A DNA stretch of 64,000 nt from an uncultured Aliiroseovarius sp. (GTDB taxonomy: Bacteria; Pseudomonadota; Alphaproteobacteria; Rhodobacterales; Rhodobacteraceae): positions 1-64,000 of the forward strand of contig NZ_CANLNB010000006.1 of NCBI RefSeq assembly GCF_947492455.1. The letters run 5' to 3'. Shown here piece by piece: positions 30,378 through 45,907 of this stretch. The notes under the pieces are model-generated. The model saw only the letters and a list, made by a program, of their open reading frames with translations. It did no database searches and was not told where the DNA came from. The position numbers and the translations under genes are program-made. How positions within the stretch are numbered: position 1 is the stretch's first letter; each line of letters opens with the position of its first letter.

Positions 30378-30425
30378 TCGCTGCTATCATCCAAAACTAC
30401 ACCAGATGAAGAATAGGTGCAGGAC

Positions 30426-31349
30426 ATGACAAGGAAGTTGCCACATGACAGTGACAGGAAATTCCTAGCTTACACAGGTACAGGGACCGATCTGATATTT
30501 AATCACGGTTTGGAACTGCCGGGATTTGCTTCTTTTCCTCTACTCGATAACTCAGAAACCCGGAGTATTCTTGCTGGGCAAATGCACACGTTAATCCAAT
30601 TGGCGGGCGAAATGGATATCGGGTGTATTCTCGATACGCCAACATGGATGGCGAACGCTGATCGTGCCGCGCCTTTGGGATACGGCGGCGAACGTCTTGC
30701 CGGCGTCAATCGGGATGCTGCGTCCTTAATGGATGATGTGCGCCGATCGGCGGGGCGCGAAGACATTTTGGTCTCGGCTTGTATCGGACCATGTGCCGAT
30801 CCCTACGCAAAGATGTCTGTGATGTCTGTGGATGAGGCGCGCGCTTATCACACCGCGCAACTTTCTGTTTTACGCGAGACCGCCGTCGATATGGCGACCG
30901 CCTATACATTCAACCGACGCAGCGAAGCCGCAGGATGTATTCTGGCAGCACGTGACGTAGGGCTGCCAATCGTCATGTCATTGGTCGTCGAAACTGATGG
31001 CTGCCTTGCAGACGGTACACCGCTTACAGACGCGATTGATCAGATAGACGCAGATAGTGGGAGCAGTGCTGCTTACTTCATGATTAACTGCGCTCACCCA
31101 TCACATTTTGCCGGGTCGCTTAATGCGCACCCAAGGTTGCGCGGCGTTGTGGCAAATGCTTCGCGCTGTTCGCATGCCGAGCTCGATGAAGCTGAGAAGC
31201 TTGATGAAGGCGATCCGCGTCAACTAGGTCGCGAAATCGCAGATATTGTGAAAAGCAACCCGGCCATAACTGTGTTTGGCGGGTGTTGCGGGACTGACAT
31301 GCGTCATCTGAGAGAAATGGTGCGCGCGGTGAATGGCGGCACGGGATAG
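30426..31349 (+). CDS. Homocysteine S-methyltransferase-family protein
   Basis: 307 residues. Zinc-dependent methyltransferases of this family move a methyl group from S-methylmethionine, betaine or a similar onium donor to homocysteine. The three zinc cysteines are present: one in MINCAHPSHF and two in VFGGCCGTDMRHL. LLDNSETRSILAGQ-like N-terminal sequence departs from the usual DGAMGT opening (here TGTGTDLIFNHGLELP), so the donor may differ from characterised members. ATG 30426 has AGGTG six bases upstream; GTG 30417 is an alternative. GC content drops in this gene compared with core genes. Confidence 0.85.
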   Translation: MTRKLPHDSDRKFLAYTGTGTDLIFNHGLELPGFASFPLLDNSETRSILAGQMHTLIQLAGEMDIGCILDTPTWMANADRAAPLGYGGERLAGVNRDAASLMDDVRRSAGREDILVSACIGPCADPYAKMSVMSVDEARAYHTAQLSVLRETAVDMATAYTFNRRSEAAGCILAARDVGLPIVMSLVVETDGCLADGTPLTDAIDQIDADSGSSAAYFMINCAHPSHFAGSLNAHPRLRGVVANASRCSHAELDEAEKLDEGDPRQLGREIADIVKSNPAITVFGGCCGTDMRHLREMVRAVNGGTG

Positions 31350-31415
31350 ACACGCTCTACGCGGCCCCTAAAGAAAAAACGGCCCCGCATCTCTGCGTGA
31401 CGCATTCCGTCCGAT

Positions 31416-31510
31416 AGGAGGCTTCCCATCATGTCCTGCCGAACTATTTCCGGCAGGACATTGATTTCTATTTGAATTTCGAATTCAAAGTCGACGACAG
31501 ATCGGCCTGA
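31416..31510 (+). pseudogene. Possible frameshifted small gene or gene remnant before a terminator
   Basis: A perfect AGGAGG (31416-31421) lies nine bases before ATG 31431, but that frame ends after 14 codons. The frame from CTG 31436 to TGA 31508 reads LPNYFRQDIDFYLNFEFKV and ends DDRSA, with ordinary codon use, and stops two bases before a strong terminator. One frameshift just after the ATG would join the Shine-Dalgarno start to this frame. It could be a small gene with an indel, the decayed 3' end of a larger one, or chance. The 11-bp hairpin 31431-31461 overlaps it. Confidence 0.35.
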
Positions 31511-31511
31511 T

Positions 31512-31544
31512 GCCCGGGACCTCGCAGTCCCGGGCTTCGTTTTT
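31512..31544 (+). terminator. Rho-independent terminator
   Basis: GCCCGGGAC (31512-31520) pairs perfectly with GTCCCGGGC (31527-31535) around CTCGCA and is followed by TTCGTTTTT. It ends whatever transcript comes from the small coding-like segment and probably the methyltransferase gene upstream. Confidence 0.85.
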
Positions 31545-31599
31545 GCGAGTTTTGGCCAATATAACAATCAGCGGGAAACGCCATGGCAAAACTGAAGGT

Positions 31600-31609
31600 G
31601 GGGGGGGGG
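31600..31609 (+). repeat. G10 homopolymer at the start of the transposase-like gene
   Basis: Ten consecutive G residues lie between an ATG at 31583 and the body of the long open frame. With ten G, ATG 31583 is out of frame; with 8 or 11 it would be in frame. The tract also serves as a Shine-Dalgarno-like purine run before TTG 31612. Confidence 0.9.
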
Positions 31610-31611
31610 CT

Positions 31612-33948
31612 TTGTTCGAGAGCATTGAAAACCTATCGCTCGACCAGATTTACCCAGAGGTTGTCGGCCGAGTAAACTTGAACACATGCGGAAATCCGGA
31701 TTGCGGAAATTTTGGCTTCGCATTTAATCCTGACATTCCTGATCCTCGTGGGGGGTCTTCGAAATTCAAACTGGCGGCTGCTTCGAGCGCAGCGATTTCC
31801 GCAGGTGTCGGGCAATACAAGCTGTCTTCCTCGGGCAAGAAAGAAGATGCGCGGGTTTCTTCCATCCTCGAATACGGGAACGAGCCAAGAGCATGGATGG
31901 ATACAAGAACCATTGTATGCCAGCACAAGGCTGGGAATCGAAAATGTGGCTTGGGTCAGAAGGTTCTTTCCAATGCTCACTTCGTGGCGGAAACAAATCG
32001 CCTAAGGTCGATGAACGGCGTTCTGGATGGACCAAGATGCGGTAGCTGCGGAAAGCGGTATCTTGAAGAGCCGACTGCGTTTGCCCTCGATGGTGCCAAC
32101 GGCAAGACCACGCCCAGAAAAGGTAGCCGGAAGGGTGGAAAGCCCCTCGGAATGCGTGTCGTTTGCAAAGCATGCAAAGGCCAAAGAGGCTCGCGGTTTA
32201 CGGTGTCAGCACCGCATCGCCGGCAGAAGGAAAGAACTGAAAACATCCAAATCCTGAACCACCTGGTCAATGAGTCAGGAATGAGTGATATGCGCCGAAT
32301 TTTCAGAAGCCCTGATGGCAGGCGACAGGTTGGCATGTCGCGGTTCTACGATCGCATATTTTGGCTTGAGGAAGTCCTCCTTGCTTATGAAAAGGCCCAG
32401 TTGGACAAGTGGCGTAAGGACCACGAACGCCTCGGGAAATTTCGCCATCACAAAATTGCCCATGACGATATTGTTCTTTCGGTGAACTGGGAGACGCGCA
32501 CTGACCGCCGCCTGACACAGTTGAATTGTTCGATCAGTGCAGACATCGATTCTGGCTACATTTACCGAATAGATGTCGATTTCGATCCTACCATTGATCC
32601 CGCCAATTATCTGCTCGACCACTACGGTGGTCGCAAAGGGCCAGTGAAGATCAGAAAGACTTATACCAAGGCAGATGGAACAACGTTCACCGCGCCCCTT
32701 TTGGAATTCCAACGACCCTCTGGGCGGTATGAAGAAGGAGCACTCTTCGCAGCTGCCGAGTCAGAATTCCGCCTCTTCGGTGAGAAGGTTCATGAAAAGC
32801 TCAAGCGAGCGAAGAGGACACCCGACGCGAGCCTTCAATTCGAGCTCGACAGAGCTGAGGAAAGGCGGCTCTCGCTCAGCTTCCTTCGCAGGTTCTATTT
32901 CAATTTCCCCGCGTCAGAGCGTGATACGCGCAACTCATTTTCGGGCATTATGACGCGCGATACCTACACAAAAGCGGCGCATCTCGAATGCCTGAGAGAA
33001 ATGTTGCCCTCCGGAAAGATAACGCTCGTCAGTGAACAAGAAGCGGCAATGGCGCGGGTAGTTCCGCACATCTTCCGGGAAGACATTAAGGAGGATTTGT
33101 TTGAATGGCTTGTCGTGAGCTTCAACAAGAAGGCAACCAAGGGTCAGATCACCTCGAAGTTCAACCGATACGACGCATCGCTCAGAAGGTTTCGGAATGC
33201 CAATCCGAACCTTGCGCCATATGAAGCGCTGCATGCATGGACTGAAGCCAGGCTGAAGCCTGCCTACAAACCTGGACGATCCGGGGATGCTCGGCCGTTT
33301 CCTATATCAAATTTTGCGACACGTGCCTTCCCTGATCTCTGGATTCGAAGTCCTGTCCAGTTTGGCGGCGAGACAGACAAGGTTGTCGGATTCCCAGTCC
33401 TGTCGCGCCGATACAGGGAACAATTCAAAGCTTTGGGCATAGACTCTCAGATCAAGGATCCTGATCTTTGCAAGGCCATTACAAGGCGCGTTGTCCGGGC
33501 GACATTGCAGCCGGCTTCGAGCTTTATGGAGGCTGTTCGCGAACGCATCAGTATGACTGATCGCGCAAGCAGCGGCGGGGCTCGAAAAGGTCCCTCGTTT
33601 GAGAACGGTGCCAGCTACAATCCCAGGGTTCTGATCGCGATCCTGAACATCTTCAGGGTTCACTATAATTTTTTCGAGTTTCGCCAATATGTAACATCTC
33701 GGAACAAGCATGACGAAACCGAAGAAGTAGAAATGACCATGAGCTCTATCGCAGTTCCCGGTGAAAATATACGGATTCCCGTAGAGAAACACCGAAAACG
33801 GGCACCTATTGAGAACACGCCAGCCATTCGCTTGGGAGTTCAAAAAGTGTCGTCGGAAGATGAGCAGCCTTCGCTTCCGAACCTTTCTCGGGTTCTTTAC
33901 AAGCCATGGCTTCTATACGGCACGCCTCTTTGGACGCGGCTGTCGTAA
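31612..33948 (+). CDS. Large zinc-ribbon, transposase-like protein
   Basis: 778 residues if started at TTG 31612, immediately after the G10 tract. Two zinc ribbons are visible: CGNPDCGNFG (about 26-33) with a C...C pair near 104-112 (VCQHKAGNRKCGL), and CGSC with CKAC (about 145-200). A basic helical segment resembling a helix-turn-helix follows (HLVNESGMSDMRRIF, GMSRFYDRIFWLEE). Then comes an RNase H-like stretch, HDDIVLSVNWETRTDRRLTQ and CSISADIDSGYIYRIDVDF, with a second candidate strand ITLVSEQEAAMARVV. This order resembles DDE transposases with N-terminal zinc ribbons, but the acidic triad is not certain. Base composition is strikingly low in GC (for example 26 of 60 bases at 31681-31740), suggesting horizontal acquisition. 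No terminal inverted repeats or target duplications were found. Confidence 0.75.
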   Translation: MFESIENLSLDQIYPEVVGRVNLNTCGNPDCGNFGFAFNPDIPDPRGGSSKFKLAAASSAAISAGVGQYKLSSSGKKEDARVSSILEYGNEPRAWMDTRTIVCQHKAGNRKCGLGQKVLSNAHFVAETNRLRSMNGVLDGPRCGSCGKRYLEEPTAFALDGANGKTTPRKGSRKGGKPLGMRVVCKACKGQRGSRFTVSAPHRRQKERTENIQILNHLVNESGMSDMRRIFRSPDGRRQVGMSRFYDRIFWLEEVLLAYEKAQLDKWRKDHERLGKFRHHKIAHDDIVLSVNWETRTDRRLTQLNCSISADIDSGYIYRIDVDFDPTIDPANYLLDHYGGRKGPVKIRKTYTKADGTTFTAPLLEFQRPSGRYEEGALFAAAESEFRLFGEKVHEKLKRAKRTPDASLQFELDRAEERRLSLSFLRRFYFNFPASERDTRNSFSGIMTRDTYTKAAHLECLREMLPSGKITLVSEQEAAMARVVPHIFREDIKEDLFEWLVVSFNKKATKGQITSKFNRYDASLRRFRNANPNLAPYEALHAWTEARLKPAYKPGRSGDARPFPISNFATRAFPDLWIRSPVQFGGETDKVVGFPVLSRRYREQFKALGIDSQIKDPDLCKAITRRVVRATLQPASSFMEAVRERISMTDRASSGGARKGPSFENGASYNPRVLIAILNIFRVHYNFFEFRQYVTSRNKHDETEEVEMTMSSIAVPGENIRIPVEKHRKRAPIENTPAIRLGVQKVSSEDEQPSLPNLSRVLYKPWLLYGTPLWTRLS

Positions 33949-34406
33949 AGGCCCATCGCAAAACAGCTATTCCGGGCTTGCAATTATTCGTTGGCATGGT
34001 TTCTAAAAAGCTATCGGTCCACATCGGACATTCGTCGCAACAGACGCGAATGACCGTAGGGTGCCCACATTGACTCAATGCTGCAGTTCGCTCGAATGAA
34101 AGTGACAGGTCCAGAATGGACACCCTTGGGTGTGATGACACCCCGTTCTGTCTCTTAAAAAAGATCCGAAAACTCACCTGCATATGCCACTCAAGGATTT
34201 GCATCTAAGACGTATTCGTTGGAGCGAAGGTCACTGTGCACGAGCTTAGCTGTGACATTTTACCTGTAAGCAATTGTACATGATTCAAAATTCTTTTCAG
34301 TTTTTTACTCTTGGGCCTATCGGTACAAATCATCTCTACAAATAAGGCGAATTTTGGTTTGGAGCGTTTCTCTGCCCCTGTTTCGCCGATGACAAGGAGG
34401 AAAGAA
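33949..34406. other. 458-bp intergenic region without a supported gene
   Basis: AT-rich compared with the window. It contains small inverted repeats, such as ACACCC/GGGTGT near 34121-34134, and ends with an excellent AAGGAGG Shine-Dalgarno (34395-34401) for the binding-protein gene. The part around 34030-34110 (ACATTCGTCGC, GACGCGAATGACC, TTCGCTCGAATG) looks like decayed sequence and has faint resemblance to 44470-44540. Short open frames here have no coding character. Confidence 0.45.
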
Positions 34407-35378
34407 ATGTTCAAGATTTCAACGGGACTCGGGTGTGTATTTGCTGCCGCAATCACCGCCTCGGCGGCTCAGGCAAACGAATGCGGTGAAGTATCTATCA
34501 TGCAAGGCGACTGGGGGTCTGCACAGATCGTCACAGCGGTTGCGAAGTTCCTGATGGAGCAAGGTTACGGGTGCGACGTCACCGCAATGCCGCTCTCGAG
34601 CAACCCTGCGCTGGCATCCGTATCCGAGACCGGAGAACCTGATATTCTGACTGAAATCTGGACAAACGGCGCGCCGGCTTACCAAGGTCTGGTTGACTCA
34701 GGTGCGATCATTCCGGTGACCGAAGTTCTGTCAGATGGCGGAGTCGAAGGGTTCTTTGTTCCGAACTATCTTGTGGAGAAACATCCCGAACTGGCGACAA
34801 TTGAAGGCATCGCAGCCAACCCCGAACTCGTCGGAAATCGCTTTCACAACTGCCCCGAGGGATGGACTTGTCTGAATGTCAGCACCAACCTGCTGAAGGC
34901 TGGTGGGTTGATTGATGCAGGCATTGATAACTTTGTGCATGGATCAGGCGAAACCCTTGCGGCTTCGATCGCGGCCGCTTACGGCAACAAGGAGCCGTGG
35001 TTCGGCTTTTATTGGGCGCCGACATCGGTACTGGGTAAATACCCGATGACCCTGGTCGAAATGGGCCCCCATGACCCTGAAAAGCATGCCTGCAACATCA
35101 CGGCGGAATGCGCGACGCCAGAAATGAGCGCCTTCCCCCGCAGTGAAGTCGTTACAGTTCTGTCGAAAGAATTCATGGCCGAAAACGCAGCAGTGTCTGA
35201 CCTGATGACAAATCTGTCCTTCACCAACGCACAGATGGGCGAAACGCTGGCATGGGTTGAAGACAACAATGCCTCTTACGATGAAGGCGCGGTGCATTTC
35301 CTGACGACCAACAAGGATGTCTGGGGGGCATGGCTTAACGATGCGGCGCGCGACAATCTTTCTGCACTGCTGCAGTAA
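34407..35378 (+). CDS. Periplasmic substrate-binding protein of a betaine/choline-type ABC transporter
   Basis: 323 residues with a cleavable signal peptide (LGCVFAAAITASAAQA). The OpuAC/ProX-like domain follows: VSIMQGDWGSAQIVTAVAKF, EPDILTEIWTNGAPAYQ, and several conserved tryptophans that form the aromatic cage used to bind quaternary amines. C-terminal FLTTNKDVWGAWLNDAAR is typical. ATG 34407 has a strong AAGGAGG Shine-Dalgarno; the longer in-frame version does not carry the signal peptide at its end. It is first of three transporter genes and is separated from the permease by a stem-loop that should favour its expression. Ligand: glycine betaine, choline, carnitine or a related onium compound. 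Confidence 0.92.
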   Translation: MFKISTGLGCVFAAAITASAAQANECGEVSIMQGDWGSAQIVTAVAKFLMEQGYGCDVTAMPLSSNPALASVSETGEPDILTEIWTNGAPAYQGLVDSGAIIPVTEVLSDGGVEGFFVPNYLVEKHPELATIEGIAANPELVGNRFHNCPEGWTCLNVSTNLLKAGGLIDAGIDNFVHGSGETLAASIAAAYGNKEPWFGFYWAPTSVLGKYPMTLVEMGPHDPEKHACNITAECATPEMSAFPRSEVVTVLSKEFMAENAAVSDLMTNLSFTNAQMGETLAWVEDNNASYDEGAVHFLTTNKDVWGAWLNDAARDNLSALLQ

Positions 35379-35389
35379 ATTGCACGGAC

Positions 35390-35413
35390 AGGGGCATCCT
35401 CAGCGATGCCCCT
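35390..35413 (+). other. Intercistronic stem-loop after the binding-protein gene
   Basis: AGGGGCATC (35390-35398) pairs perfectly with GATGCCCCT (35405-35413) around CTCAGC, with no T-tract. It lies 12 bp past the binding-protein stop and probably protects that part of the transcript, a common way to over-express the binding protein relative to the permease and ATPase. Confidence 0.6.
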
Positions 35414-35444
35414 AACGCACTGAAGTAGACGGAAAGTGGGATAA

Positions 35445-36473
35445 ATGGCCTTCTATGACAAGCTATTCAGCACCTTAGGTTTGAGCGACTGGTGCGGCGA
35501 TTCCGGCGATGAAGCGCCTCTTTCGCTGGCGGACCTTGCGGCGCGAGCAGGGGGAGAGGAGGCCTCTGGGCCGCTAGTTCCGATTCCCTCGTTTGATAAT
35601 CTGCATGAAAGCTGCAACCGGGTTTGGCAGTCGCGCGATGTAACCAACGGGATCGAAGAAGGGTTTCTGGCAGCCAAACCGGCTCTGAAAACTGTTCTGG
35701 ACCCGATCACACAGCCGCTGAGCTGGATGTTGGATGGCGCACTATGGCTGTTTGAAGCGATGCCGTGGTTCATCATGGTCCCGCTTCTGGTGGCGATTTC
35801 CTGGTACGCCTCGCGTTCGCGCCCTGTGACGATCTTCGTCGCCGTCTCGATTATGCTGCTGGCTGTCGTAGATCACTACGATGTGGCGATGCAGACTCTG
35901 TCGATCATCTTTGTATGTACGACGATATCGGTGCTGTTCGGTGTGCCCATTGGCATTGCCATGTCGAAATCCGACCGATTGCAAAAAAGCGTGGTTCCGT
36001 TACTCGACCTGCTGCAGACCCTGCCGACCTTCGTGTACCTGATCCCTCTAATTTTCTTGTTCTCGGTCACGGAATCCAAACTGTATGGGATTGCAATCAT
36101 CCTTTACGCGATTGTGCCGGTGATCCGTTTGACCGACCTTGGCATCCGCCTTGTCGACAGGGACGTGATTGAGGCGGCCAATGCCTTTGGCATGAATGAC
36201 CGCCAGAAACTGATGCGAGTACAATTGCCGCTGGCGCTACCGAACATCATGGCCGGGATCAACCAGACCATCATGATGAGCCTTGCCATGGTCGTGATCG
36301 CCTCTCTTGTTTCGGCCCCTGGCCTTGGCGTGAACGTGTTGCGCGGTATCCGAAACCTTGAACTGGGTGTGGGCATCGTCGCTGGCATCGGCATTGTTTT
36401 GCTGGCCGTGATCCTTGACCGCGTGTCCAAGGCAGCTCTCACACGGGTCGATAAGACCCAAGTCAAACACTAA
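35445..36473 (+). CDS. ABC transporter permease, ProW/ChoW type
   Basis: 342 residues. A soluble N-terminal extension of about 85 residues is followed by helices (LWLFEAMPWFIMVPLLVAIS onward) and the binding-protein-dependent transport core. The ATPase-contact EAA-like loop is DVIEAANAFGMNDRQKLMRVQLPLALPNIM in part. Such an N-terminal extension is common in alphaproteobacterial ProW/ChoW proteins. It sits between the binding-protein gene and the ATPase gene (12 bp gap), forming the transmembrane homodimer of the importer. Confidence 0.93.
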   Translation: MAFYDKLFSTLGLSDWCGDSGDEAPLSLADLAARAGGEEASGPLVPIPSFDNLHESCNRVWQSRDVTNGIEEGFLAAKPALKTVLDPITQPLSWMLDGALWLFEAMPWFIMVPLLVAISWYASRSRPVTIFVAVSIMLLAVVDHYDVAMQTLSIIFVCTTISVLFGVPIGIAMSKSDRLQKSVVPLLDLLQTLPTFVYLIPLIFLFSVTESKLYGIAIILYAIVPVIRLTDLGIRLVDRDVIEAANAFGMNDRQKLMRVQLPLALPNIMAGINQTIMMSLAMVVIASLVSAPGLGVNVLRGIRNLELGVGIVAGIGIVLLAVILDRVSKAALTRVDKTQVKH

Positions 36474-36485
36474 GGAGCCCGTTCG

Positions 36486-37544
36486 ATGACACAACCAATG
36501 GTCAGCCTGTCCGGGCTCTATAAAATCTTTGGCGCCCGCGACAAGGACGTGTTGCAGCATGTCAAAGGAGGCATGGGCAAGGAAGAGTTGTTGGCACAGC
36601 ACGGGCACGTGTTGGGTCTCAACAACATCAACGTCGATATGCAGGCGGGCGAAATCACGGTTGTCATGGGCCTGTCAGGCTCGGGCAAATCCACGCTGAT
36701 CCGCCACCTGAACCGGTTGATCGAACCCACTGCGGGCGAGATCATCGTGCAGGGTGAGGACGTTATGAGCCTGTCCGAGGACGGGTTGCGTCATGCTCGT
36801 CAGGAAAAGATGTCGATGGTGTTCCAGAAATTCGCGCTATTGCCGCACAAGACTGTGCTGAAGAACGCGGGCATGCCACTGTCGGTGCGTGGCGAAGACG
36901 AGGTCACCTGCGACCGCGAAGCCGCGAAATGGCTGGACCGCGTCGGTCTGAGCGGGTTCGAGAACCATTATCCAGCGCAGTTGTCTGGTGGCATGCAACA
37001 GCGGGTGGGCATTGCCCGGGCGCTGACCGCAAACACACCGATCATGCTGATGGACGAGGCTTTCTCGGCCCTTGATCCGCTGATCCGGACTGACATGCAG
37101 GACCTGCTTCTCGAGCTGCAAAAAGAGCTGCACAAGACCATCATCTTCATCACTCACGATCTTGATGAGGCGCTGAAGCTGGCCGATCACCTTGTAATCC
37201 TGAAGGACGGCTTTGTCGTGCAACAAGGCGAGCCACAGTTTATCTTGCTGAACCCTAACGATCCCTACATCGAAGACTTCGTGAGCGACATCAACCGCGC
37301 ACGGGTTCTGCGGGTGCGCTCGATTATGACCCCGCTTGTAGGCGGCAAAGTGCCAAAAGATGCGCATGGCGAAGTGGACGTGAACGACACGCTCGAAAGC
37401 ATGATCGCGCGGTCTGGCGGCGATACGTCACACGCCTATATCGTCAAAGATGGGGAGCAGACGGTCGGCACACTGGATATGACCGAACTGGTTCGCGCTC
37501 TTGTCCCTCGCGTCGCATCCGAAGCCGGTGCGCGTCAGCACTGA
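36486..37544 (+). CDS. ABC transporter ATP-binding protein, ProV/ChoV type
   Basis: 352 residues. Walker A GLSGSGKST, signature LSGGMQQRVGIARAL, Walker B IMLMDEAFSALD, and the switch histidine in IFITHDLDEAL. The ~30-residue insertion before the core (GARDKDVLQHVKGGMGKEEL) is typical of the glycine betaine/proline subfamily (OpuAA/ProV). C-terminally a single CBS-like repeat (DTLESMIARSGGDTSHAYIV) may sense ionic strength or nucleotide. It completes the three-gene importer and converges on the LysR gene. Confidence 0.95.
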   Translation: MTQPMVSLSGLYKIFGARDKDVLQHVKGGMGKEELLAQHGHVLGLNNINVDMQAGEITVVMGLSGSGKSTLIRHLNRLIEPTAGEIIVQGEDVMSLSEDGLRHARQEKMSMVFQKFALLPHKTVLKNAGMPLSVRGEDEVTCDREAAKWLDRVGLSGFENHYPAQLSGGMQQRVGIARALTANTPIMLMDEAFSALDPLIRTDMQDLLLELQKELHKTIIFITHDLDEALKLADHLVILKDGFVVQQGEPQFILLNPNDPYIEDFVSDINRARVLRVRSIMTPLVGGKVPKDAHGEVDVNDTLESMIARSGGDTSHAYIVKDGEQTVGTLDMTELVRALVPRVASEAGARQH

Positions 37545-37577
37545 CGCGCGCTGACGGCAGAGCTGTAAGTCAACAGA

Positions 37578-38501
37578 TCAGGCCCGGAAGAACCGCATGG
37601 TTGGGTCGGCCTCGATCTGTTCGAACAGCCAGTCGATAAATGTATCGAGCTTGGGGTTGGGTGCACGCTCTTTTTGCGTCGCCAGATACCAGCGGCCTGG
37701 CTCGGGTACTGAAATGTCGAAGGGTCTAACCAGACGCCCCCTCTCAAGATCACGCGCGCAAAACGGTGCCCTTGCGACGCTGATACCGTGATTATTTAGA
37801 ACAGCCTCACGGACAAGCGGGTAATTGTCGAAAACAGAGCCAAATTTCATCGTTTCGCGATCTAAGCCCGCCGCATCCAACCAACAGTCCCAGTCATCCG
37901 GCTCATTCCATGTGTTTGGGACACTCAGCAACAGGAAATTTCTTAGCTCTTCCAGCGGCATTCCACCGCTTGGCGCATTCAAGGCCTCCGGAGCACATAC
38001 CGGGTAGATATCCGTTTCGAACAAGGGGCTATAGTCAAACCGTTTGTCAAATGGTGGCGCGTTGAACACGCCCACATCGAACCGGTGCATGTCATAATCA
38101 CCGTCTTCAAAGGTAGAGACGATGCGCACACGCGTGTCCGGATTATCCTGAAGAAAGTCCGCCAATCTGGGCTGAAGCCACATTGTATTGAAACTTGCGT
38201 AGGACTGAACGAGCAACACGTCCGGTTCCTCAGGTGTCTGGATGCGCCGTGTGGCTTTGATAATGCCCTGAATGTGCTCGCGGACCGGCGGGTAATATTG
38301 CTCCCCGGCCGGTGTCAGTTCGACCGAACGGCTTGTGCGTTCCAGCAGTTTAACGCCGATTGATGTTTCCAGTGCTTTGACTTGGTGGCTGACTGCCGCA
38401 TGGGTCACACAAATCTCTTCTGCAGCCTTTCGGAAACTCTTGTGACGCGCCACCGCCTCAAAAGCGCGCAGTGAAACCAGCGTGGGCATGTGAGTGGTCA
38501 T
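37578..38501 (-). CDS. LysR-family regulator, GcvA-like
   Basis: 307 residues. The N-terminal winged helix is clear (SLRAFEAVARHKSFRKAAEE, VTHAAVSHQVKALETSIGVK, ERTSRSVELTPAGE), followed by the LysR effector-binding domain. The fit is best to the GcvA/AmpR-like branch. It is divergent from the acyl-CoA ligase operon and adjacent to the transporter genes, so it is the natural candidate activator of the catabolic operon and perhaps the transporter. The 215-bp divergent region contains palindromes suited to LysR binding. Effector unknown. Confidence 0.94.
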   Translation of the reverse strand: MTTHMPTLVSLRAFEAVARHKSFRKAAEEICVTHAAVSHQVKALETSIGVKLLERTSRSVELTPAGEQYYPPVREHIQGIIKATRRIQTPEEPDVLLVQSYASFNTMWLQPRLADFLQDNPDTRVRIVSTFEDGDYDMHRFDVGVFNAPPFDKRFDYSPLFETDIYPVCAPEALNAPSGGMPLEELRNFLLLSVPNTWNEPDDWDCWLDAAGLDRETMKFGSVFDNYPLVREAVLNNHGISVARAPFCARDLERGRLVRPFDISVPEPGRWYLATQKERAPNPKLDTFIDWLFEQIEADPTMRFFRA

Positions 38502-38716
38502 TGCTGCATCTCCTCGATGAAATCAATTCTGCTTACCCTCAAGCAGAGTTATCCGACGACGGGCGCGAATGTAGCAGGGTTTTGATACTCTTTTCATAAC
38601 CTGTCAGGGGGTAGCACGCAATTCGCAGCGCGATGTGATCGGTTAGAATTTCTTGATGAAAGGAAATTTCTTTCAATTCTTCATCTGGGTGAGAAATGCC
38701 AGATTAGCAGATAGAG
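38502..38716. promoter_or_regulatory. Divergent LysR / ligase-operon control region
   Basis: Two inverted repeats are visible. TCTGCTT (38529-38535) and AAGCAGA (38542-38548) with a 6-bp centre lie close to the lysR start and fit autoregulation. GATGAA (38655-38660) and TTCATC (38680-38685) enclose a GAAATTTC core (38663-38670) close to the ligase start. LysR proteins bind interrupted dyads of this kind, but binding is not shown. Confidence 0.5.
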
Positions 38717-40342
38717 ATGTTATGGGATTCCACCTTCATGCCACCACTTTCACCTTCGCCAAATGCATATGGCTATCCGTTGCTGATTAAACACTTGCTG
38801 GCCGGATCCCAGCTCGCGTCAGCCAGCCAAGAGATCGTCAGCGGCACCGAAATGCGACTGAGCTACGCGGACTTGGGCAAACGCGTGCGCCAACTTGCCA
38901 ATTCTTTAAAGGCGAGCGGGATACATGAGGGCATGCGCGTCGGTGTCATGGATTGGGATACGCACCGTTATCTTGAGTGTTTTTTCGCGATCCCGATGAT
39001 GGGCGCGTCCCTTTTCACGATCAACGTGCGTCTGTCTCCTGCTCAGGTTCTTTATACGATCAACCATGGGCAACCGGATCTGATCATCGTGCACCGCGAT
39101 TTCATGCCGCTCATTGAGGGTATCAAATCGGGCTTTGATCGGGACATCACCATCGTGCCGATTGGAGACGGAGAAGGATATGAAGAGTGGATAGGCAAAG
39201 CCCCAGGCAGCTTTGACTTCCCGGACTTCGATGAAAAACAAACGGCAACCTTGTTTTATACGACCGGGACCACCGGCAATCCCAAGGGGGTGAGCTATTC
39301 ACATCGGCAGTTGGTCCTTCACACCTTGGGTCTGATCGCTGGTTTCGGCGCGTGGCCCGGGAATGCCGGGTTTCATCGCGGCGACGTTTACATGCCGCTG
39401 ACGCCCTTGTTTCATGTCCACGGCTGGGGATTTCCATATGCCGCAACGATGCTGGGGCTGCGTCAGGTCTATCCCGGTCGATATGACCCTGACACAATCT
39501 TGCGATTGATTGCCGACGAAAACGTCACCTTTTCCCACTGCGTGCCCACGGTTCTGTCAATGGTGCTCGACCATCCGGGCTGCCCACAAATTGACCTGGA
39601 CAGATGGAAAGTGATCATTGGCGGGGCCGCTTTGCCGCGCAATTTGCAGGACCGGGCGGCGGCGGCAGGCATATCCTTGCATGCGGCCTATGGGATGTCC
39701 GAGACCTGTCCGTTTCTGACGGTGGCCGATTTGTCCAGCAATGACCCCGAGATGCAGGCGCAAACCGGCTTTCCCGGCCCGCTTGTCGACCTTCGTGTTG
39801 TGACACCGGATATGCAGGACGTTCCACATGACGGCGAAACAACCGGCGAAGTTGTTGCTCGGGCTCCCTGGTTGACACAAGGCTATCTGGATAATGCGCA
39901 AGCCTCGGATGAGCTTTGGGACGGTGGGTATCTGCATACCGGGGATGTTGGGTATATCCGTCGGAATGGATCGTTGCAGATTACTGACCGCCTCAAGGAT
40001 GTGATCAAGACCGGCGGCGAATGGATTTCCTCGCTGGCACTGGAAAACATAGCATCGTCTTGTAGCGGCGTTGAGGACGTCGCGGCAATCGGGTTGCCGC
40101 ACGCGAAATGGGGCGAAAGGCCGGTCTTGGTTGCTCAAGCCGCAAAAGATGTCGACCCGGATCTTGTGCGCTTGAGAGTCATGGAAGAAATCCAGTCGCG
40201 GGTTGACGCAGGCGAGATCTCAAAATGGGCAGTTCCAGACGAGATAATCTTTGTCGCCCGCCTACCTAAAACCAGCGTCGGCAAGCTCGACAAGAAACTC
40301 GTGCGGAAAGATATTTCAACGCGCTCGGACTTTAAATCATGA
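38717..40342 (+). CDS. Acyl-CoA ligase (AMP-forming), DmdB-like
   Basis: 541 residues, adenylate-forming enzyme. The ATP loop is FYTTGTTGNPKGVSYSH; other motifs are YGMSETCPF, GYLHTGDVGYI, TDRLKDVIKTGGEWIS and the C-terminal catalytic lysine region PKTSVGKLDK. The N-terminus (NAYGYPLLIKHLL) and overall layout resemble the medium-chain/methylmercaptopropionate (DmdB) ligases of roseobacters. It should activate the pathway's carboxylate to its CoA thioester. ATG 38717 or 38738 may be the start. First gene of the operon, with a 4-bp overlap (ATGA) with the cupin gene. Confidence 0.92.
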   Translation: MLWDSTFMPPLSPSPNAYGYPLLIKHLLAGSQLASASQEIVSGTEMRLSYADLGKRVRQLANSLKASGIHEGMRVGVMDWDTHRYLECFFAIPMMGASLFTINVRLSPAQVLYTINHGQPDLIIVHRDFMPLIEGIKSGFDRDITIVPIGDGEGYEEWIGKAPGSFDFPDFDEKQTATLFYTTGTTGNPKGVSYSHRQLVLHTLGLIAGFGAWPGNAGFHRGDVYMPLTPLFHVHGWGFPYAATMLGLRQVYPGRYDPDTILRLIADENVTFSHCVPTVLSMVLDHPGCPQIDLDRWKVIIGGAALPRNLQDRAAAAGISLHAAYGMSETCPFLTVADLSSNDPEMQAQTGFPGPLVDLRVVTPDMQDVPHDGETTGEVVARAPWLTQGYLDNAQASDELWDGGYLHTGDVGYIRRNGSLQITDRLKDVIKTGGEWISSLALENIASSCSGVEDVAAIGLPHAKWGERPVLVAQAAKDVDPDLVRLRVMEEIQSRVDAGEISKWAVPDEIIFVARLPKTSVGKLDKKLVRKDISTRSDFKS

Positions 40343-41025
40343 CAGACAAGCAACGCCGTATTCAGGCGCTTATTCAATCCATTGTCACCTATCTGCAGGC
40401 TCACAGAGCTGCCACGCGCGGCGTTGATCTGACGTTGGACAAGCTGGCAGCCATGGACCTGAAGGGTGAGAGGCTCTTTGATTTACCTCCCCAAGGAACC
40501 CGGCACGATGAGGTTCTGAAGAACGCCATCGCCGGGATTGTCGCCCCCGAATTGCAAGAAATCGCACGTTGTCTGAAAGCGGCCAAGGATGATCTGATCT
40601 GGCGCGAAGACAACGCCCAATTCTATCCCCCTGGTGCCGAATTGGGCGAGGGATACACAAAGTGTAACCTACATACTCTGCTGATTGGGCCAGACGCATG
40701 TGGACATCACCATCCCGATTTCAACCTTGGCATTTTCATGCTGGGCCCAAGGACGCTGTATCGCGACCACAACCACGACGCGCCAGAGCTGTACCTGAAC
40801 CTGTCCGAGAAATCTGGTTGGCGGTTTGGCACCCGTGACTGGCAGGATTATCCGGCTGGATCACTTATCTGGAACGCGGCGGGCGATCCCCACGCCACCC
40901 GGGTCTATGACCAGCCATTCATCTCCGTCTTTGTCTGGCTCGAGAACGTGAATTCACCCTGCAATGTAATCCACTTCGACGATTGGGCAGAGATCGAACA
41001 AGATCTTGCCAAGCAGTCCAATTGA
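40339..41025 (+). CDS. DMSP-lyase-like cupin protein
   Basis: 228 residues. The C-terminal cupin barrel has the signature of the DMSP lyase family (DddL/DddQ/DddK/DddW; Pfam DMSP_lyase): His144 and His146 in YRDHNHDAPELY, Glu150, the catalytic-type Tyr152, and His185 in GDPHATRV. The N-terminal ~115 residues are helical as in DddQ/DddL. Established members cleave DMSP to acrylate and dimethyl sulfide by beta-elimination; many relatives have no known substrate. Sitting between a CoA ligase and beta-oxidation-type genes, it could remove an onium leaving group from the pathway substrate. Whether it acts on DMSP itself cannot be told from sequence. Confidence 0.82.
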   Translation: MTDKQRRIQALIQSIVTYLQAHRAATRGVDLTLDKLAAMDLKGERLFDLPPQGTRHDEVLKNAIAGIVAPELQEIARCLKAAKDDLIWREDNAQFYPPGAELGEGYTKCNLHTLLIGPDACGHHHPDFNLGIFMLGPRTLYRDHNHDAPELYLNLSEKSGWRFGTRDWQDYPAGSLIWNAAGDPHATRVYDQPFISVFVWLENVNSPCNVIHFDDWAEIEQDLAKQSN

Positions 41026-41036
41026 GGTTTCCAAAC

Positions 41037-43157
41037 ATGATTTCCATTAAACACACCGAGGGTGTCGCTTTCATTGAGCTGAATGCCCCGCCAGTGAACG
41101 CTCTTGGCCTGAAGATGCGGCAGGCGCTTTCCTCGGCCATCCACGAGTTGGATGCCGATGAACAGGTCAAAGCTATCGTTCTATGCTCGGCTCTGCCGCT
41201 CTTTTGCGGCGGCGCTGACATCGTCGAGTTCCGTACCGGGGCAGTTTGGGACAAGCCTGACCTGCCAGACCTGTGTGTAACGATTGAAACCTGCAAGAAA
41301 CCCATTATCGCCGCGATAGCAGGTCCCGCGATGGGTGGTGCGCTTGAGATCGCGCTTGCCTGTGATTACCGTGTCGCAACGCCGGATGCAGTGATGGGGC
41401 TACCAGAGATCAAGCTGGGGTTGCTGCCAGGCGCCGGGGGCACCCAAAGGCTGCCACGGATTGCCGGGCTGGAAGCGGCAACGCAAATGATCCTTTCGGG
41501 TGATCCCGTGAAAGGCGAATATGCCTCGTCTTGCGGGTTGGTCGACGCGCTTTTTGAAAATGATCAGGAATTTCGCGCGCATGTTTTGGGTTTCGCCACC
41601 CGTGTCAGCCATGAGGGCGATCCGAAACGCAGTTGCGCGGATATGATCGTCATACACCCTGATCCGAAGGGTTATCTCGCGGGTTTCCGAGATCAGATAG
41701 CACCAAAGTCCAAAAACCTTGTCGCCCCTGAACGATGCTTGGTATCCATCGAGGCCGCGTGCGAATTGCCGCTGGCCGAGGGCTTGGCACAAGAGAAGGC
41801 AGGTTTCGCCGAACTGCTCGACACACCTCAATCGCGCGCGGGGCGGCATCTGTTCTTTGCAGAGCGTGAATGCTCCAAGGTTCCGGGCGTTACCCGTGCT
41901 GACCAACCACGTGACATTTCATCAGTCGCAGTGATCGGTGCCGGAACAATGGGGCGCGGCATTGCCATCGCCTTTCTTCAGGCAGGGTATCGGGTCACGT
42001 TTCTGGAAACCATGCAAAGTGCGCTTGAACAGGGGCTGGAAAAGGTCCGGGAGCATTTCCAGCGTGCGGCCCAAAAAGGGCGGCTCAGTGCCGATCGGGC
42101 AGAGGCCTTCGCATCCAACGCCACCGGGACGCTCAGCTACGGCGACCTCGCAGAGGCCGACCTGATCATTGAAGCGGCGTTTGAAAGCATGAATGTCAAA
42201 CGCCAGATTTTCGAAGCGTTGGACCAGCACGCCAAACCTGGCGCGATACTGGCCTCGAACACATCGACGTTGGATCTTGATGAAATCGCCGCGGTCACCT
42301 CCCGCCCGGAGGATGTGATTGGCCTCCATTTCTTCAGTCCAGCGAATGTCATGCGCTTGCTGGAGGTGGTGCGCGGCGTCAAGACCGCTCCGGATGTCAT
42401 CGCAACGGCAATCACGGTCGCAAAGAAGATCCGAAAGCTCCCAGTCACGGTTGGCGTGTGCTACGGCTTTGTTGGAAACCGGATGCTGGAGCCATACTTT
42501 CGCGAAGGATCTCGTCTGCTTCTTGAGGGGGCTACGCCGAAACAGGTGGATGAAGTCCTTGAGAGCTTTGGCATGGCCATGGGCATTCACGCGATGGCGG
42601 ATCTGGCTGGGGTCGATGTGGGTGCACGCGTGCGTCAGGAGCGGCGAAGTGAAATCGCACATGACCCAACATACCAGGCCGTGCAGGACAGGTTGTTTGA
42701 ACTGGGCCGACTGGGTCAGAAAACCGGGCGTGGAAGCTATGTTTACGAGGGACGGACACGGGTCGAAGACGCTGAGATGGTTCAAATCAGTTCCGAGCTG
42801 GCGGATCTGCATGGCGTGAAACGCAGGGACATCGACGATCAGGAAATCCTTGAGCGATGTCTCTATCCCCTGATCAACGAGGGCTTTTTGATCCTTGAAG
42901 AGGGCATTGCAACGCGCCCGGGTGATTGCGACCTGATCTGGGTCAATGGCTATGGCTTTCCAAATTGGCGCGGCGGCCCGTTGCACTATGCCGATGAGAT
43001 TGGATTGAGCCAGATTCTGGAACGCATGACCCACTATCGGCAGTCGCTTGGCACCTATGGCGAAATGTGGTTCACGCCTGCGCCTTTGTTGGAAGACCTC
43101 GTAACCTCGGGCATGACACTTGCCGCGCATTTTGATGCCAGAAAGGAAACATCATGA
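41037..43157 (+). CDS. Bifunctional enoyl-CoA hydratase / 3-hydroxyacyl-CoA dehydrogenase
   Basis: 706 residues, FadB/FadJ-type architecture. The N-terminal crotonase domain has the oxyanion-hole stretch [16 protein letters not shown] and both catalytic glutamates (Glu104, Glu124 in [19 protein letters not shown]). The NAD domain begins [14 protein letters not shown] (301-306) and contains His431 in [15 protein letters not shown], the dehydrogenase catalytic histidine; a C-terminal 3HCDH repeat follows. It should hydrate an enoyl-CoA and oxidise the 3-hydroxyacyl-CoA to 3-ketoacyl-CoA. ATG 41037 follows a GAGG. It lies 11 bp after the cupin and overlaps the thiolase by 4 bp. No acyl-CoA dehydrogenase gene is adjacent. 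Confidence 0.94.
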
Positions 43158-44338
43158 GAGAAGCCGTTATCGTCTCAACCGCCCGAACTCCGATTGGGGT
43201 TGCCTTCAAGGGTGCTCTGAACAACATCAAATCCCCTACCATGATGGGGCACGCCATTCAGCACGCGGTTGAACGTGCAGGTGTGGACCCCGGTTCGATA
43301 GAAGATGTCGTCATCGGATCGGTCCTGACTGCGGGAACCGCAGGCATGAATGTCGCTCGTTTGTCGGCGCTGGCGGCGGGCCTTCCCAATACGGTGGCAG
43401 GACAGACGATCGACAGGCAATGTTCCTCCGGGTTGATGGCCATTGCGACAGCTGCAAAGCAGGTCATTGTGGATGGTCAGAACGTTGCCGTGGCGGGCGG
43501 GCAGGAAAACATTTCCGCCCTGCAGAATGCTTATCTGAAATGGGCGGGCGATGAGAAAGATCCAAACGTTATCGCCCAATCAGAGCATGCCTATATGCCG
43601 ATGCTGATGACCGCGGAAAACGTGGCGCGGACCTATAGGATCAGCCGCGAGGTGCAGGATGAATACGCTGCACTTTCCCAAGGTCGGACGGCTCGGGCTC
43701 AGGCCGCTGGCGCCTTTGATGACGAGATCGTTCCGATCACTGCGATAAAGCGGGTCAAGAACCGCGAAACCGGAGAGGAAACCCTGGAAGAGGTGACCTT
43801 GTCAAAAGACGAAGGCAATCGACCGAATACGACGACCGAAGCACTGGGCGGGCTGAACCCGGTTGTCGAAGGAGGCGTGATTACCCCAGGAAACGCAAGC
43901 CAGCTCTCAGATGGAGCTTCCGCTTGCGTTCTCATGGAAGGCAAATTGGCTGAGCAACAGGGGCTCACACCGCTCGGCATTTATCGCGGTATGGCAGTTG
44001 CAGGAAACGCACCGGAAGAGATGGGTGTCGGCCCGATCTATGCCATTCCAAAGCTGCTGAAGAATGCAGGTCTTCGCATCGAAGACATCGGCCTTTGGGA
44101 GCTTAACGAAGCCTTCGCCTGCCAGGTTCTGTATTGCCGCGATCATCTTGGTATTGATCCGGAAGTCTACAACGTGAATGGCGGTGCCATTTCGATTGGC
44201 CACCCCTACGGTATGACGGGCGCGAGACAAGTCGGGCATGCTTTGCTTGAAGGTAGGCGCCGTGGCGTAAAGTACGTGGTTACGTCCATGTGCATTGGCG
44301 GAGGTATGGGGGCCGCAGCTTTGTTCGAAGTCGCCTGA
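43154..44338 (+). CDS. Acetyl-CoA acyltransferase (thiolase)
   Basis: 394 residues. Nucleophilic Cys90 in TIDRQCSSGL, His350 in ISIGHPYGMTG, and Cys380 in SMCIGGGMG complete the thiolase active site. It cleaves a 3-ketoacyl-CoA with CoA to acetyl-CoA plus a shortened acyl-CoA, or runs in reverse. Its presence means the pathway product entering it has at least four carbons in the acyl chain, which argues against simple three-carbon acrylate metabolism. ATGA overlap with the upstream gene. Last gene of the operon. Confidence 0.94.
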   Translation: MREAVIVSTARTPIGVAFKGALNNIKSPTMMGHAIQHAVERAGVDPGSIEDVVIGSVLTAGTAGMNVARLSALAAGLPNTVAGQTIDRQCSSGLMAIATAAKQVIVDGQNVAVAGGQENISALQNAYLKWAGDEKDPNVIAQSEHAYMPMLMTAENVARTYRISREVQDEYAALSQGRTARAQAAGAFDDEIVPITAIKRVKNRETGEETLEEVTLSKDEGNRPNTTTEALGGLNPVVEGGVITPGNASQLSDGASACVLMEGKLAEQQGLTPLGIYRGMAVAGNAPEEMGVGPIYAIPKLLKNAGLRIEDIGLWELNEAFACQVLYCRDHLGIDPEVYNVNGGAISIGHPYGMTGARQVGHALLEGRRRGVKYVVTSMCIGGGMGAAALFEVA

Positions 44339-44671
44339 CCTCACTGAAAGGAGTGCAAACCGGGCGTTGTCTGGATGAGATTTTGACAACCTGTCATTTT
44401 CGAAACCCGCCTTGTTTCAAGTCGGACGCTACATGCAAACAGATTAGTCATTTGGAAGCTCGGAGCGAATGTCGTGATAGTCCCGCTTTTGCGGACTTTG
44501 ATGCTCATCGCAGCGAACGGTTCTTTTCCGCCCAATCTATCAAAATTGGCTCCACCGTTTTTCGGTGGAGCCAACCAAAGCTCTGCGGCTTATTACCAAT
44601 TGCCTCCTACAGCACGGAATGCGTCAATCTCTGCGAGGCCGTTCTCATTTCAACCCTAAGGGCCGTATCTC
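44339..44671. other. 333-bp intergenic region between the thiolase operon and lysC
   Basis: The two genes converge here. An imperfect hairpin, GTCCCGC-TTTT-GCGGAC (44480-44496) followed by TTTG, may be a weak terminator for the thiolase operon, and the lysC terminator is at 44541-44574. A GAAAGGAG at 44345 looks like a Shine-Dalgarno, but the frame after it lacks coding character. The stretch 44470-44540 has decayed-looking sequence with some likeness to 34030-34110. Confidence 0.5.
44541..44574 (-). terminator. Rho-independent terminator of lysC
   Basis: A perfect 12-bp stem, TTGGCTCCACCG (44546-44557) with 44563-44574, around TTTTT. On the minus strand the stem is followed by TTTTG, and it lies about 100 bp past the lysC stop. 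Confidence 0.85.
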
Positions 44672-45907
44672 TTACGCTTTTTCCAGCTCGAACGCGTCGT
44701 GCAGTGCCTGCACGGCCAGCTCCATGTATTTGCGGTCGATCAGGACCGAGATCTTGATCTCGGAGGTGGTGATAACCTTGATGTTGATGCCCTCGTTGGA
44801 CAGCACGTCGAACATTTTTGCCGCGATACCAGCCTGCGAGCGCATGCCGATGCCGACGATCGACACCTTCGCCACGTCCTGATCTGCCACGATGTCATGG
44901 AAGTTGATGTCGCCGGCGGCTTTTGCGTCCGACATGGCTTTCTCAGCGCGTGCCACCTGATCGACAGGGCACGAGAAGGTCATGTCCGTGCGACCCTCTT
45001 CCGAGATGTTCTGCACGATCATGTCCACGTTCACGCCGGCGTCTGCTAGCGGGGTGAAGATGGCCGACGCGATGCCGGGGCGGTCCGCCACCGAGATAAG
45101 GGTCATTTTCGCTTCGTCGCGGCTGTATGCGACGCCAGAAACTACATTGCTTTCCACGATATCCTCCTCGTCGCAGACCAGCGTGCCTGCTTCCGGGTCA
45201 TATTCTTCAAAACTGCTCAGAACCCGCAGTTTCACCTTATAGCGCATTGCCAGCTCGACCGAGCGGGTTTGCAGAACCTTGGCGCCCAGAGATGCCAGTT
45301 CCAGCATTTCTTCGAATGCAATTTTGTCCAGCTTGCGCGCCTTATCCGAGATGCGCGGATCGGTCGTGTAAACGCCGTCCACATCGGTGTAGATGTCGCA
45401 CCGTTCCGCATCAAAGGCGGCAGCGAAGGCCACGGCGGTGGTATCCGATCCGCCACGACCCAGCGTGGTGATCCGGCCATCATCCGCGATGCCCTGGAAG
45501 CCCGCCACAACGGCGACGCGCATGCCTTCGCCGAACTTGGCCATGATGTTATCGGACGGGATTTCCTCGATCCGCGCGGCCGAGTGCACGCCGGTGGTTT
45601 TCACCGGCACCTGCCAGCCCTGCCAGCTGCGTGCGGGCACGTCCATTTCCTGCAGGCGCAGCGCCATCAGGCCCGCGGTCACTTGCTCACCCGAGCTGAC
45701 CACCGCGTCGTATTCGCGTGCGTCATACAGATGCGAGGTTTCGTTCACCCAGCCCACCAGCTCGTTGGTCTTGCCCGACATGGCCGAGACAATGACGATC
45801 ACGTCATAGCCATTGGCCACCTCACGCGCGACCCGCTTCGAGGCCCGGTGGATCCGATCCAGATTGGCGACCGATGTGCCGCCGAATTTCATCACCAGAA
45901 TTGGCAT
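44672..45907 (-). CDS. lysC: Aspartate kinase
   Basis: 411 residues. Phosphorylates aspartate, the first step to lysine, threonine, methionine and diaminopimelate. It begins MPILVMKFGGTSVANLDRI with the aspartokinase signature KFGGTS (7-12). The kinase core contains LGRGGSDTTAVAFAAAFDAE, and two ACT domains occupy the C-terminal third (about 265-411; feedback sites such as GIGMRSQAGIAAKMFDVL). A single gene with its own terminator. In related alphaproteobacteria ptsP follows immediately downstream; here 20 kb of other genes intervene. Confidence 0.97.
   Translation of the reverse strand: MPILVMKFGGTSVANLDRIHRASKRVAREVANGYDVIVIVSAMSGKTNELVGWVNETSHLYDAREYDAVVSSGEQVTAGLMALRLQEMDVPARSWQGWQVPVKTTGVHSAARIEEIPSDNIMAKFGEGMRVAVVAGFQGIADDGRITTLGRGGSDTTAVAFAAAFDAERCDIYTDVDGVYTTDPRISDKARKLDKIAFEEMLELASLGAKVLQTRSVELAMRYKVKLRVLSSFEEYDPEAGTLVCDEEDIVESNVVSGVAYSRDEAKMTLISVADRPGIASAIFTPLADAGVNVDMIVQNISEEGRTDMTFSCPVDQVARAEKAMSDAKAAGDINFHDIVADQDVAKVSIVGIGMRSQAGIAAKMFDVLSNEGINIKVITTSEIKISVLIDRKYMELAVQALHDAFELEKA

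Follow-up and report, generated by a model that had tools for sequence, protein, structure and literature searches.

The first 64,000 nucleotides of contig NZ_CANLNB010000006.1 from an uncultured Aliiroseovarius sp. (contig C6 of a genome of 3.09 Mb in 12 contigs), hereafter called the window, carry a gene module that combines a three-component importer, a LysR regulator and a divergent operon. The operon encodes an acyl-coenzyme A (CoA) ligase, a cupin related to lyases of dimethylsulfoniopropionate (DMSP), an enoyl-CoA hydratase/3-hydroxyacyl-CoA dehydrogenase and a thiolase. The module is contained in a unit transposon, the cargo spanning positions 34407-44338 and the whole unit being larger (31398-44626). 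We propose with moderate confidence that the cargo of this transposon forms a self-contained operon for the catabolism of a DMSP-like sulfonium acid.

The evidence for mobility lies at the two ends of the element, which measures 13,229 bp and encloses the whole module. Directly outside its terminal inverted repeats stands a perfect 9-bp duplication, ATCTCTGCG. Two other Aliiroseovarius loci (L004 and L007) present the same element ends at other sites, where the outside duplications are GGTTGGGAC and AGAGATCCG; other than transposition, little would readily account for three insertions that each have a different 9-bp duplication. DNA similarity to L004 and L007 runs from 31371-31374 to 44626-44627 at 95-96%, the left alignment extending 24-27 bp past the repeat, which was taken as run-over. 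Near copies that possess the importer genes start to align at 34046-34262 and end at 44338-44472, with 91-93% similarity. A scan allowing up to 4 mismatches revealed no such ends in 40 further loci, some of them too short to reach that far, and an empty-site comparison in the same-genus genome G373 gave nothing, since the left neighbour of the element has no ortholog there (26%). The genes flanking the element, one of the homocysteine S-methyltransferase family (30417-31349) and one that reads by eye as the aspartate kinase gene lysC (44672-45907), belong to the host and not to the cargo.

The candidate transposase is an 812-aa protein that found no match at the thresholds used in Pfam, NCBIfam, PHROGs or the PDB, nor in the PDB with a profile of five relatives. 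Its relatives were detected in 18 of 388 genomes of the family, several with internal stops, and homologues on plasmids amounted to two weak matches. Seven regions around such relatives were collected (L128-L134), and the end analysis covered all but L132, a broken copy at a contig end. Of the six relatives examined, five are bounded by like ends (15-19 of 20 positions matching) and an exact 9-bp duplication, the elements measuring 2.9, 2.9, 4.5, 5.8 and 8.5 kb, whereas no end pair was found for L128. The gene thus occurs both solo (2.9 kb) and with cargo, and its candidate role as transposase is supported because the solo copies carry the same kind of ends. Inverted ends in this transposon family include TGACGCATTCCG and TGGCGCATTCCGG. 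Among the cargoes, the element at L133:1063-6870 (transposase in two frames) bears a patatin phospholipase and a DncV-like nucleotidyltransferase, as in CBASS anti-phage systems; that at L134:1245-9734, in which the transposase region is interrupted, bears a protein of metallo-beta-lactamase fold, an MFS transporter and a frame that by eye looks LysR-like.

The nature of the cargo is indicated by its importer and its cupin. The binding protein matched the solved, DMSP-bound DmpX (7yle) with 58% identity over the aligned length, its sole other PDB match standing at E 2e-5 (queries began at 34401, two residues before the start at 34407, within a frame open from 34311). Homologues of the binding protein, permease and ATPase lie in one cluster, which is the gene set of DmpXWV. 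The DmpX pocket consists of Trp35, Thr64, Trp84, Glu113, Trp152, Ala153, Tyr200 and Trp202, of which Tyr200 is said to contact or bond to the sulfonium (PMC10030565, in its accessible text). An alignment of 24 binding-protein rows of the module type, a few of them representing one gene in two loci, showed Trp35, Trp84, Glu113, Trp152 and Trp202 retained in all 24. In the window protein five of the eight pocket residues are likewise kept, and the DMSP pocket is therefore incomplete: the onium cage persists, given its four Trp and Glu113, and the remaining pocket differs through changes at Thr64, Ala153 and Tyr200. Choline and glycine betaine transporter equivalogs among the NCBIfam matches listed for the importer were all under cut-off, and the general ProV subfamily was barely reached. 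A second DmpXWV-like importer is present in the same genome (G000:C2:35711-38721, L111); its binding protein, 35% identical and with Thr64 and Tyr200 intact, is followed on contig C2 by permease and ATPase frames of its own.

The cupin is the sole PF16867 (DMSP_lyase) match of the genome, at 79.9 bits against a cut-off of 27. It retains six of the six active-site residues of DddQ plus Trp178, which belongs to the DddQ pocket. The six residues are given as Tyr120, His123, His125, Glu129, Tyr131 and His163 in the accessible text of PMC4437653. Together with Trp178 they recur in every alignment row (E below 1e-12, some rows being one gene in two loci) that covers those columns, save L065, which has Leu for Trp178. 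An AlphaFold2 model built from 18 orthologs reached a pLDDT of 82 (72.7-82.0 over five models, with a weak stretch at 111-122), and its six best PDB matches were all DddQ (E 7.8e-12 to 1.9e-10; next match 1.9e-7), with target-normalised TM-scores of 0.72-0.77 over 210-219 columns. Identity to solved DddQ is nevertheless 16-19%, below the 40% identity to a ratified lyase that the accessible text of PMC13310141 applies to DddK and DddU among others, not to DddQ, and that was extended here to the cupin; for this reason the cupin was not filed as DddQ. By its residues and predicted fold it is DddQ-like in build, not DddQ itself, and a probable lyase of an onium acid. The gene is under constraint, dN being 0.004-0.119 against dS of 0.032-1.846 in six comparisons.

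Open reading frames and Pfam matches confirmed the gene content that the first-pass annotation had recognised in this region, namely an ATP-binding cassette (ABC) importer of betaine/choline type, a LysR gene and the divergent ligase, cupin, hydratase/dehydrogenase and thiolase genes. The reading-frame coordinates also reproduced the tight spacing it had described, with overlaps of 4 bp between ligase and cupin and between hydratase/dehydrogenase and thiolase, and a gap of 11 bp between cupin and hydratase/dehydrogenase. The operon contains no acyl-CoA dehydrogenase gene. Its hydratase/dehydrogenase and thiolase score far under the cut-offs of the FadB, FadJ and FadA models. Among 25 of the 104 NCBIfam matches of the ligase, those listed, only the cut-off of the general long-chain ligase subfamily was passed (546 vs 476) and no carnitine model appeared; DmdB was rejected as an identity for this protein (376 bits vs a cut-off of 822). 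The LysR gene also adjoins the cupin at the ligase-free loci L029, L032 and L033. A conserved block in the divergent promoter region is recognisable in eight of the ten loci aligned, including L030 and L029, weak in L032, and at L033 the intergenic space is too short. Since this block recurs across loci, and at L029 its equivalent sits before the cupin itself, control of the cupin by LysR is suggested.

Table 1. Features of the transposon and its cargo in the window, with the basis of each assignment.
Feature	Positions	Strand	Basis
9-bp target-site duplication, left copy	31389..31397	.	identical to 44627-44635
Left terminal inverted repeat, 25 nt	31398..31422	+	22/25 complementary to right end; also in L004, L007
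812-aa transposase candidate	31510..33948	+	relatives between similar inverted ends with 9-bp duplications
DmpX-like substrate-binding protein	34407..35378	+	OpuAC; DmpX 7yle, E 4e-117
DmpW-like permease	35445..36473	+	BPD_transp_1
DmpV-like ATPase	36486..37544	+	ABC_tran; ProV subfamily 327.7 bits, cut-off 326.6
LysR regulator	37578..38501	-	Pfam LysR; nearest model GcvA, below its cut-off
Conserved block in divergent promoter region, candidate regulator/promoter site	38641..38682	+	alignment of ten loci, present in eight
AMP-forming acyl-CoA ligase	38717..40342	+	AMP-binding and C-terminal domain
Cupin of DddQ fold, probable onium-acid lyase	40339..41025	+	PF16867, active-site residues, fold
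Enoyl-CoA hydratase/3-hydroxyacyl-CoA dehydrogenase	41037..43157	+	ECH_1, 3HCDH_N, 3HCDH; cupin co-occurrence
Thiolase	43154..44338	+	Thiolase_N and Thiolase_C; solved thiolases
Right terminal inverted repeat, 25 nt	44602..44626	-	pairs with left end, 22/25
9-bp target-site duplication, right copy	44627..44635	.	identical to 31389-31397

Linkage of the cupin to its neighbours in other genomes, which the first-pass annotation had named as the test of its reading, was found in a sample of 35 cupin loci from a named genome collection: the ligase directly precedes the cupin in 24, though not in the other 11. The hydratase/dehydrogenase and thiolase follow the cupin in all 22 ligase-cupin loci whose contig continues. 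The full order, that is, the importer genes for binding protein, permease and ATPase (X-W-V), LysR, ligase, cupin, hydratase/dehydrogenase and thiolase, is present in 15 of the 35 (L002-L008, L010-L015, L017 and L035), and L018 has the same arrangement up to the cupin, where its contig ends. Six loci (L009, L016, L020, L021, L023 and L027, the contig of the last ending just past LysR) show the series from LysR to thiolase without X-W-V, while L036 is cut after ligase and cupin. In L030, from a gammaproteobacterial Cocleimonas bin, LysR and X accompany the series from ligase through cupin and hydratase/dehydrogenase to thiolase, with the ligase-cupin overlap and the order kept at 72% cupin identity. 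Many of the 24 loci with the ligase before the cupin are recent copies of one another and not independent, so the divergent L017, L020, L027, L030 and L036, at 68-82% cupin identity, constitute the better evidence.

Whole-genome scans of the family covered 394 genomes for the cupin and 388 for the hydratase/dehydrogenase and the 812-aa protein. The cupin passed E 1e-10 in 36 genomes; identity was at least 81% in five of these, 58% in one and no higher than 43% in the rest. An ortholog of the hydratase/dehydrogenase (two candidates scored per genome, E 1e-200 or better) was present in five genomes, the same five that have the cupin at 81% or more, and in none without the cupin. Across 398 genomes of the phylum the cupin gave three matches, one of them new. 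A full module is carried by plasmid pP72_b of Phaeobacter inhibens. A tree of 40 cupin rows has long branches and many open forks, and was used solely as evidence that the different layouts are interleaved.

The uptake genes vary between loci. At the Leisingera loci L020, L021 and L023 and on the Leisingera plasmid L069, X-W-V is replaced by a family-5 binding protein together with a membrane protein of the fatty-acid-hydroxylase family; the same two accompany LysR and cupin, without ligase, at L032 and L033, and a family-5 binding protein stands in place of X-W-V at L009 and L016. These assignments rest on Pfam for the L033 pair and the L020 hydroxylase, and on BLAST similarity or record annotation for the remainder. 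The hydroxylase-family protein recurs near the cupin at L072, L028, L032, L033, L020 and L069, even at 31% cupin identity. The enzyme oxidising DMSP to dimethylsulfoxonium propionate (DMSOP) is described as still unknown in the accessible text of PMC13360808. In a second cupin branch (L073, L075, L078, L079 and similar loci) the gene has one or two oxygenase neighbours that match a glycine betaine monooxygenase subunit best among NCBIfam models, at scores far below its cut-off; three proteins of L073 and L078 were scanned and the others assigned by BLAST. ABC importer genes are also found at L073, L075 and L079.

Elsewhere in its genome the host encodes the DMSP demethylase DmdA (657 bits vs a cut-off of 410) and an AcuI-family reductase that exceeds its subfamily cut-off (435 bits vs 297) and scores 420.7 vs 440 for the AcuI equivalog. 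The two genes lie side by side with that of a BCCT carrier at G000:C5:191236-195501 (L110). As for other lyases, DddP was rejected on five of seven M24 frames (405-458 aa), the best of which scored 27.6 bits vs a cut-off of 600, the 748- and 326-aa frames being unscanned; no two-domain DddD was seen, the three CoA-transferase frames having at most 405 aa, and DddL, DddY, DddK, DddW and DddX were not sought individually.

A DMSP-like sulfonium acid is likelier than carnitine as the substrate because the importer is kin to DmpXWV and the cupin has the DddQ fold and its six active-site residues, and a module for such an acid in general is considered fairly probable. DddQ acts by beta-elimination of dimethyl sulfide (DMS), and a 3-hydroxy acid needs no acyl-CoA dehydrogenase. 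The lack of that dehydrogenase, together with the presence of a thiolase, means that a 3-hydroxy sulfonium acid such as gonyol, which we take to be 5-dimethylsulfonio-3-hydroxypentanoate, would fit. Gonyol is the best single candidate, a tentative one that is more easily wrong than right. In the proposed pathway, the DmpXWV-like importer would bring in the dimethylsulfonio acid and LysR would switch on the divergent operon. Ligase, dehydrogenase and thiolase would then perform one round of beta-oxidation on a chain longer than that of DMSP, starting from the 3-hydroxy acid: the ligase would form gonyol-CoA, the dehydrogenase its 3-oxo thioester, and the thiolase acetyl-CoA and DMSP-CoA. DMS would be lost either from DMSP, through beta-elimination by the cupin on the free DMSP-type acid, or from DMSP-CoA by the hydratase domain, and acryloyl-CoA could pass to the AcuI-family enzyme encoded elsewhere. 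The cupin would accordingly act after chain shortening, not on gonyol itself. Breakdown of the DMSP-like compound probably releases DMS.

Several observations weigh against this pathway or parts of it. In the binding protein, Tyr200 is replaced by Phe in 24 of 24 module-type rows, Ala153 by Thr or Val, and Thr64 by Ser except in L029 (Thr) and L035 (Gly). With three pocket positions altered the ligand may not be DMSP, and a quaternary ammonium head becomes possible. The cupin signature also occurs in distant cupins, including those beside the oxygenases that best match the glycine betaine monooxygenase model, and therefore does not by itself prove DMSP or name the substrate. Among solved structures the ligase comes closest to an acyl-ACP synthetase (E 3e-160), followed by a long-chain fatty-acid ligase (4e-97). 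Eleven of the 35 cupin loci have no adjoining ligase (L019, L022, L024, L025, L026, L028, L029, L031, L032, L033 and L034), so the cupin is able to function on its own. In the L028/L029 lineage loss of the ligase with retention of the cupin seems likely, because at L028 some 70 residues of a ligase end remain immediately ahead of the cupin and L029 retains X and LysR by it. Regarding gonyol in particular, the accessible text of PMC7221440 reports that Ruegeria pomeroyi used it fully without release of DMS or methanethiol and that no strain produced DMS from it, and reasons that gonyol itself is not a possible substrate for a DddQ-type enzyme; gonyol is further described as an inhibitor of DMSP lyases in the part of PMC9695272 available. 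No R. pomeroyi record is among the 35 cupin loci (its presence in that collection being unchecked), and since this species uses gonyol, gonyol use does not need the module.

Other substrates would make different use of the same enzymes. If plain DMSP or DMSOP were imported, the cupin would yield DMS (or dimethyl sulfoxide) and acrylate, the ligase acryloyl-CoA and the hydratase 3-hydroxypropionyl-CoA, leaving dehydrogenase and thiolase to general acyl-CoA turnover. The kinship of importer and cupin agrees with this, the ligase-free cupin loci suit a stand-alone lyase, and all known DMSP lyases tested also cleave DMSOP according to the accessible text of PMC10686828. It is nonetheless judged unlikely, with three pocket residues changed in the binding protein and with dmdA and an AcuI-family enzyme already in the host. 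On pathway knowledge, moreover, the thiolase has no obvious place after 3-oxopropionyl-CoA, which supports the objection to a plain acrylate route that had been raised from the thiolase at the outset. All the enzymes would be used in one line, and the absence of an acyl-CoA dehydrogenase explained, if the cupin took the first step, on a beta-onium acid with at least four carbons, giving a 2-enoate in place of that dehydrogenase, with ligase, hydratase, dehydrogenase and thiolase following; no abundant natural compound of such kind is known to us, however, and this order of events is regarded as quite improbable.

The first-pass annotation was right in kind to see a module for uptake and CoA-dependent degradation of an onium acid, but its first choice of carnitine or a betaine did not hold up, the kinships of importer and cupin pointing to a sulfonium acid. 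Activation of such a compound to its CoA ester, oxidation, and cleavage to betainyl-CoA and acetyl-CoA would on paper be accomplished by ligase, 3-hydroxyacyl-CoA dehydrogenase and thiolase; loss of Tyr200 in the binding protein would agree with it, as would the distant cupins beside oxygenases with glycine betaine monooxygenase as best model. Yet this route gives the DddQ-fold cupin no role, the best solved relative of the importer is the DMSP-bound DmpX, and only the general ProV subfamily was just reached among the transporter models listed. R. pomeroyi DmpX, besides, shows little binding of betaine, choline or carnitine in the accessible data of PMC10030565. Carnitine or another betaine is accordingly given very little credence. 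Even less is given to an ordinary operon for fatty-acid beta-oxidation whose cupin has an unrelated function, a reading that the general long-chain score of the ligase (546 vs 476) and the fatty-acid enzymes among its best solved relatives would favour. Such an operon would hardly account for the ligase-cupin overlap and order still present in gammaproteobacterial L030, where the cupin is 72% identical, for a hydratase/dehydrogenase ortholog seen only with the cupin in 388 family genomes, or for an importer and regulator that travel with the operon.

The preferred reading, a mobile operon for a DMSP-like sulfonium acid, bears on compounds that are not rare, gonyol and other DMSP relatives being common in marine algae. 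One study detected gonyol in every haptophyte and dinoflagellate surveyed, saw its uptake by the four bacteria tested, and invokes an unidentified alternative pathway (PMC7221440, accessible text). If an operon with a lyase-type cupin is mobile, the patchy appearance of the use of such compounds in marine bacteria would be explained and a marker gene for it provided, the transposon moving a complete set for uptake, regulation and catabolism in one step. In its most specific and rather doubtful form, the proposal is that of a first gene set for gonyol breakdown, on a transposon that spreads among marine bacteria and in which one round of beta-oxidation is combined with a cupin of DMSP-lyase type and an importer of DmpX type. 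If true, gonyol would be converted to acetyl-CoA and DMSP or its CoA ester, then to DMS, and the mover would be a transposon family with a transposase not yet in Pfam. No gonyol gene set or transposon of this kind was found in the open-licence literature searched on gonyol, cupin DMSP lyases and DMSP-lyase transfer. The transposon, the alternative importers and the ligase-free cupins are additions to the first-pass annotation, the mobile element being the firmest new result.

When compared with known systems, the element resembles unit transposons with inverted ends and 9-bp duplications, having 25-nt ends, 9-bp duplications and one large transposase candidate; it differs in that, at the thresholds used, this candidate has no counterpart in Pfam, NCBIfam, PHROGs or the PDB. 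The hydratase/dehydrogenase and thiolase share their domain make-up with FadB and FadA but fall far below the corresponding model cut-offs, in an operon without acyl-CoA dehydrogenase. DddU is a cupin lyase of marine Rhodobacterales, and the window cupin could belong to it. In the accessible text of a coastal study, dddU is one of two main lyase genes, and the ddd and dmdA genes come mainly from Amylibacter and Planktomarina (PMC13310141). A cupin relative lies in a Planktomarina bin (L028), and none of the 35 loci comes from a record titled Amylibacter or Neptunicoccus, though several are from bins with no name below family. With DddQ the cupin has in common PF16867, the six active-site residues and, in the model, the fold over most of the chain; it departs from it in its 16-19% identity to the solved enzymes and in its setting, a beta-oxidation-type operon, its lyase activity being predicted. 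With DmpXWV the window importer, although substituted at Thr64, Ala153 and Tyr200, shares the X-W-V order, 58% identity to solved DmpX and the onium cage.

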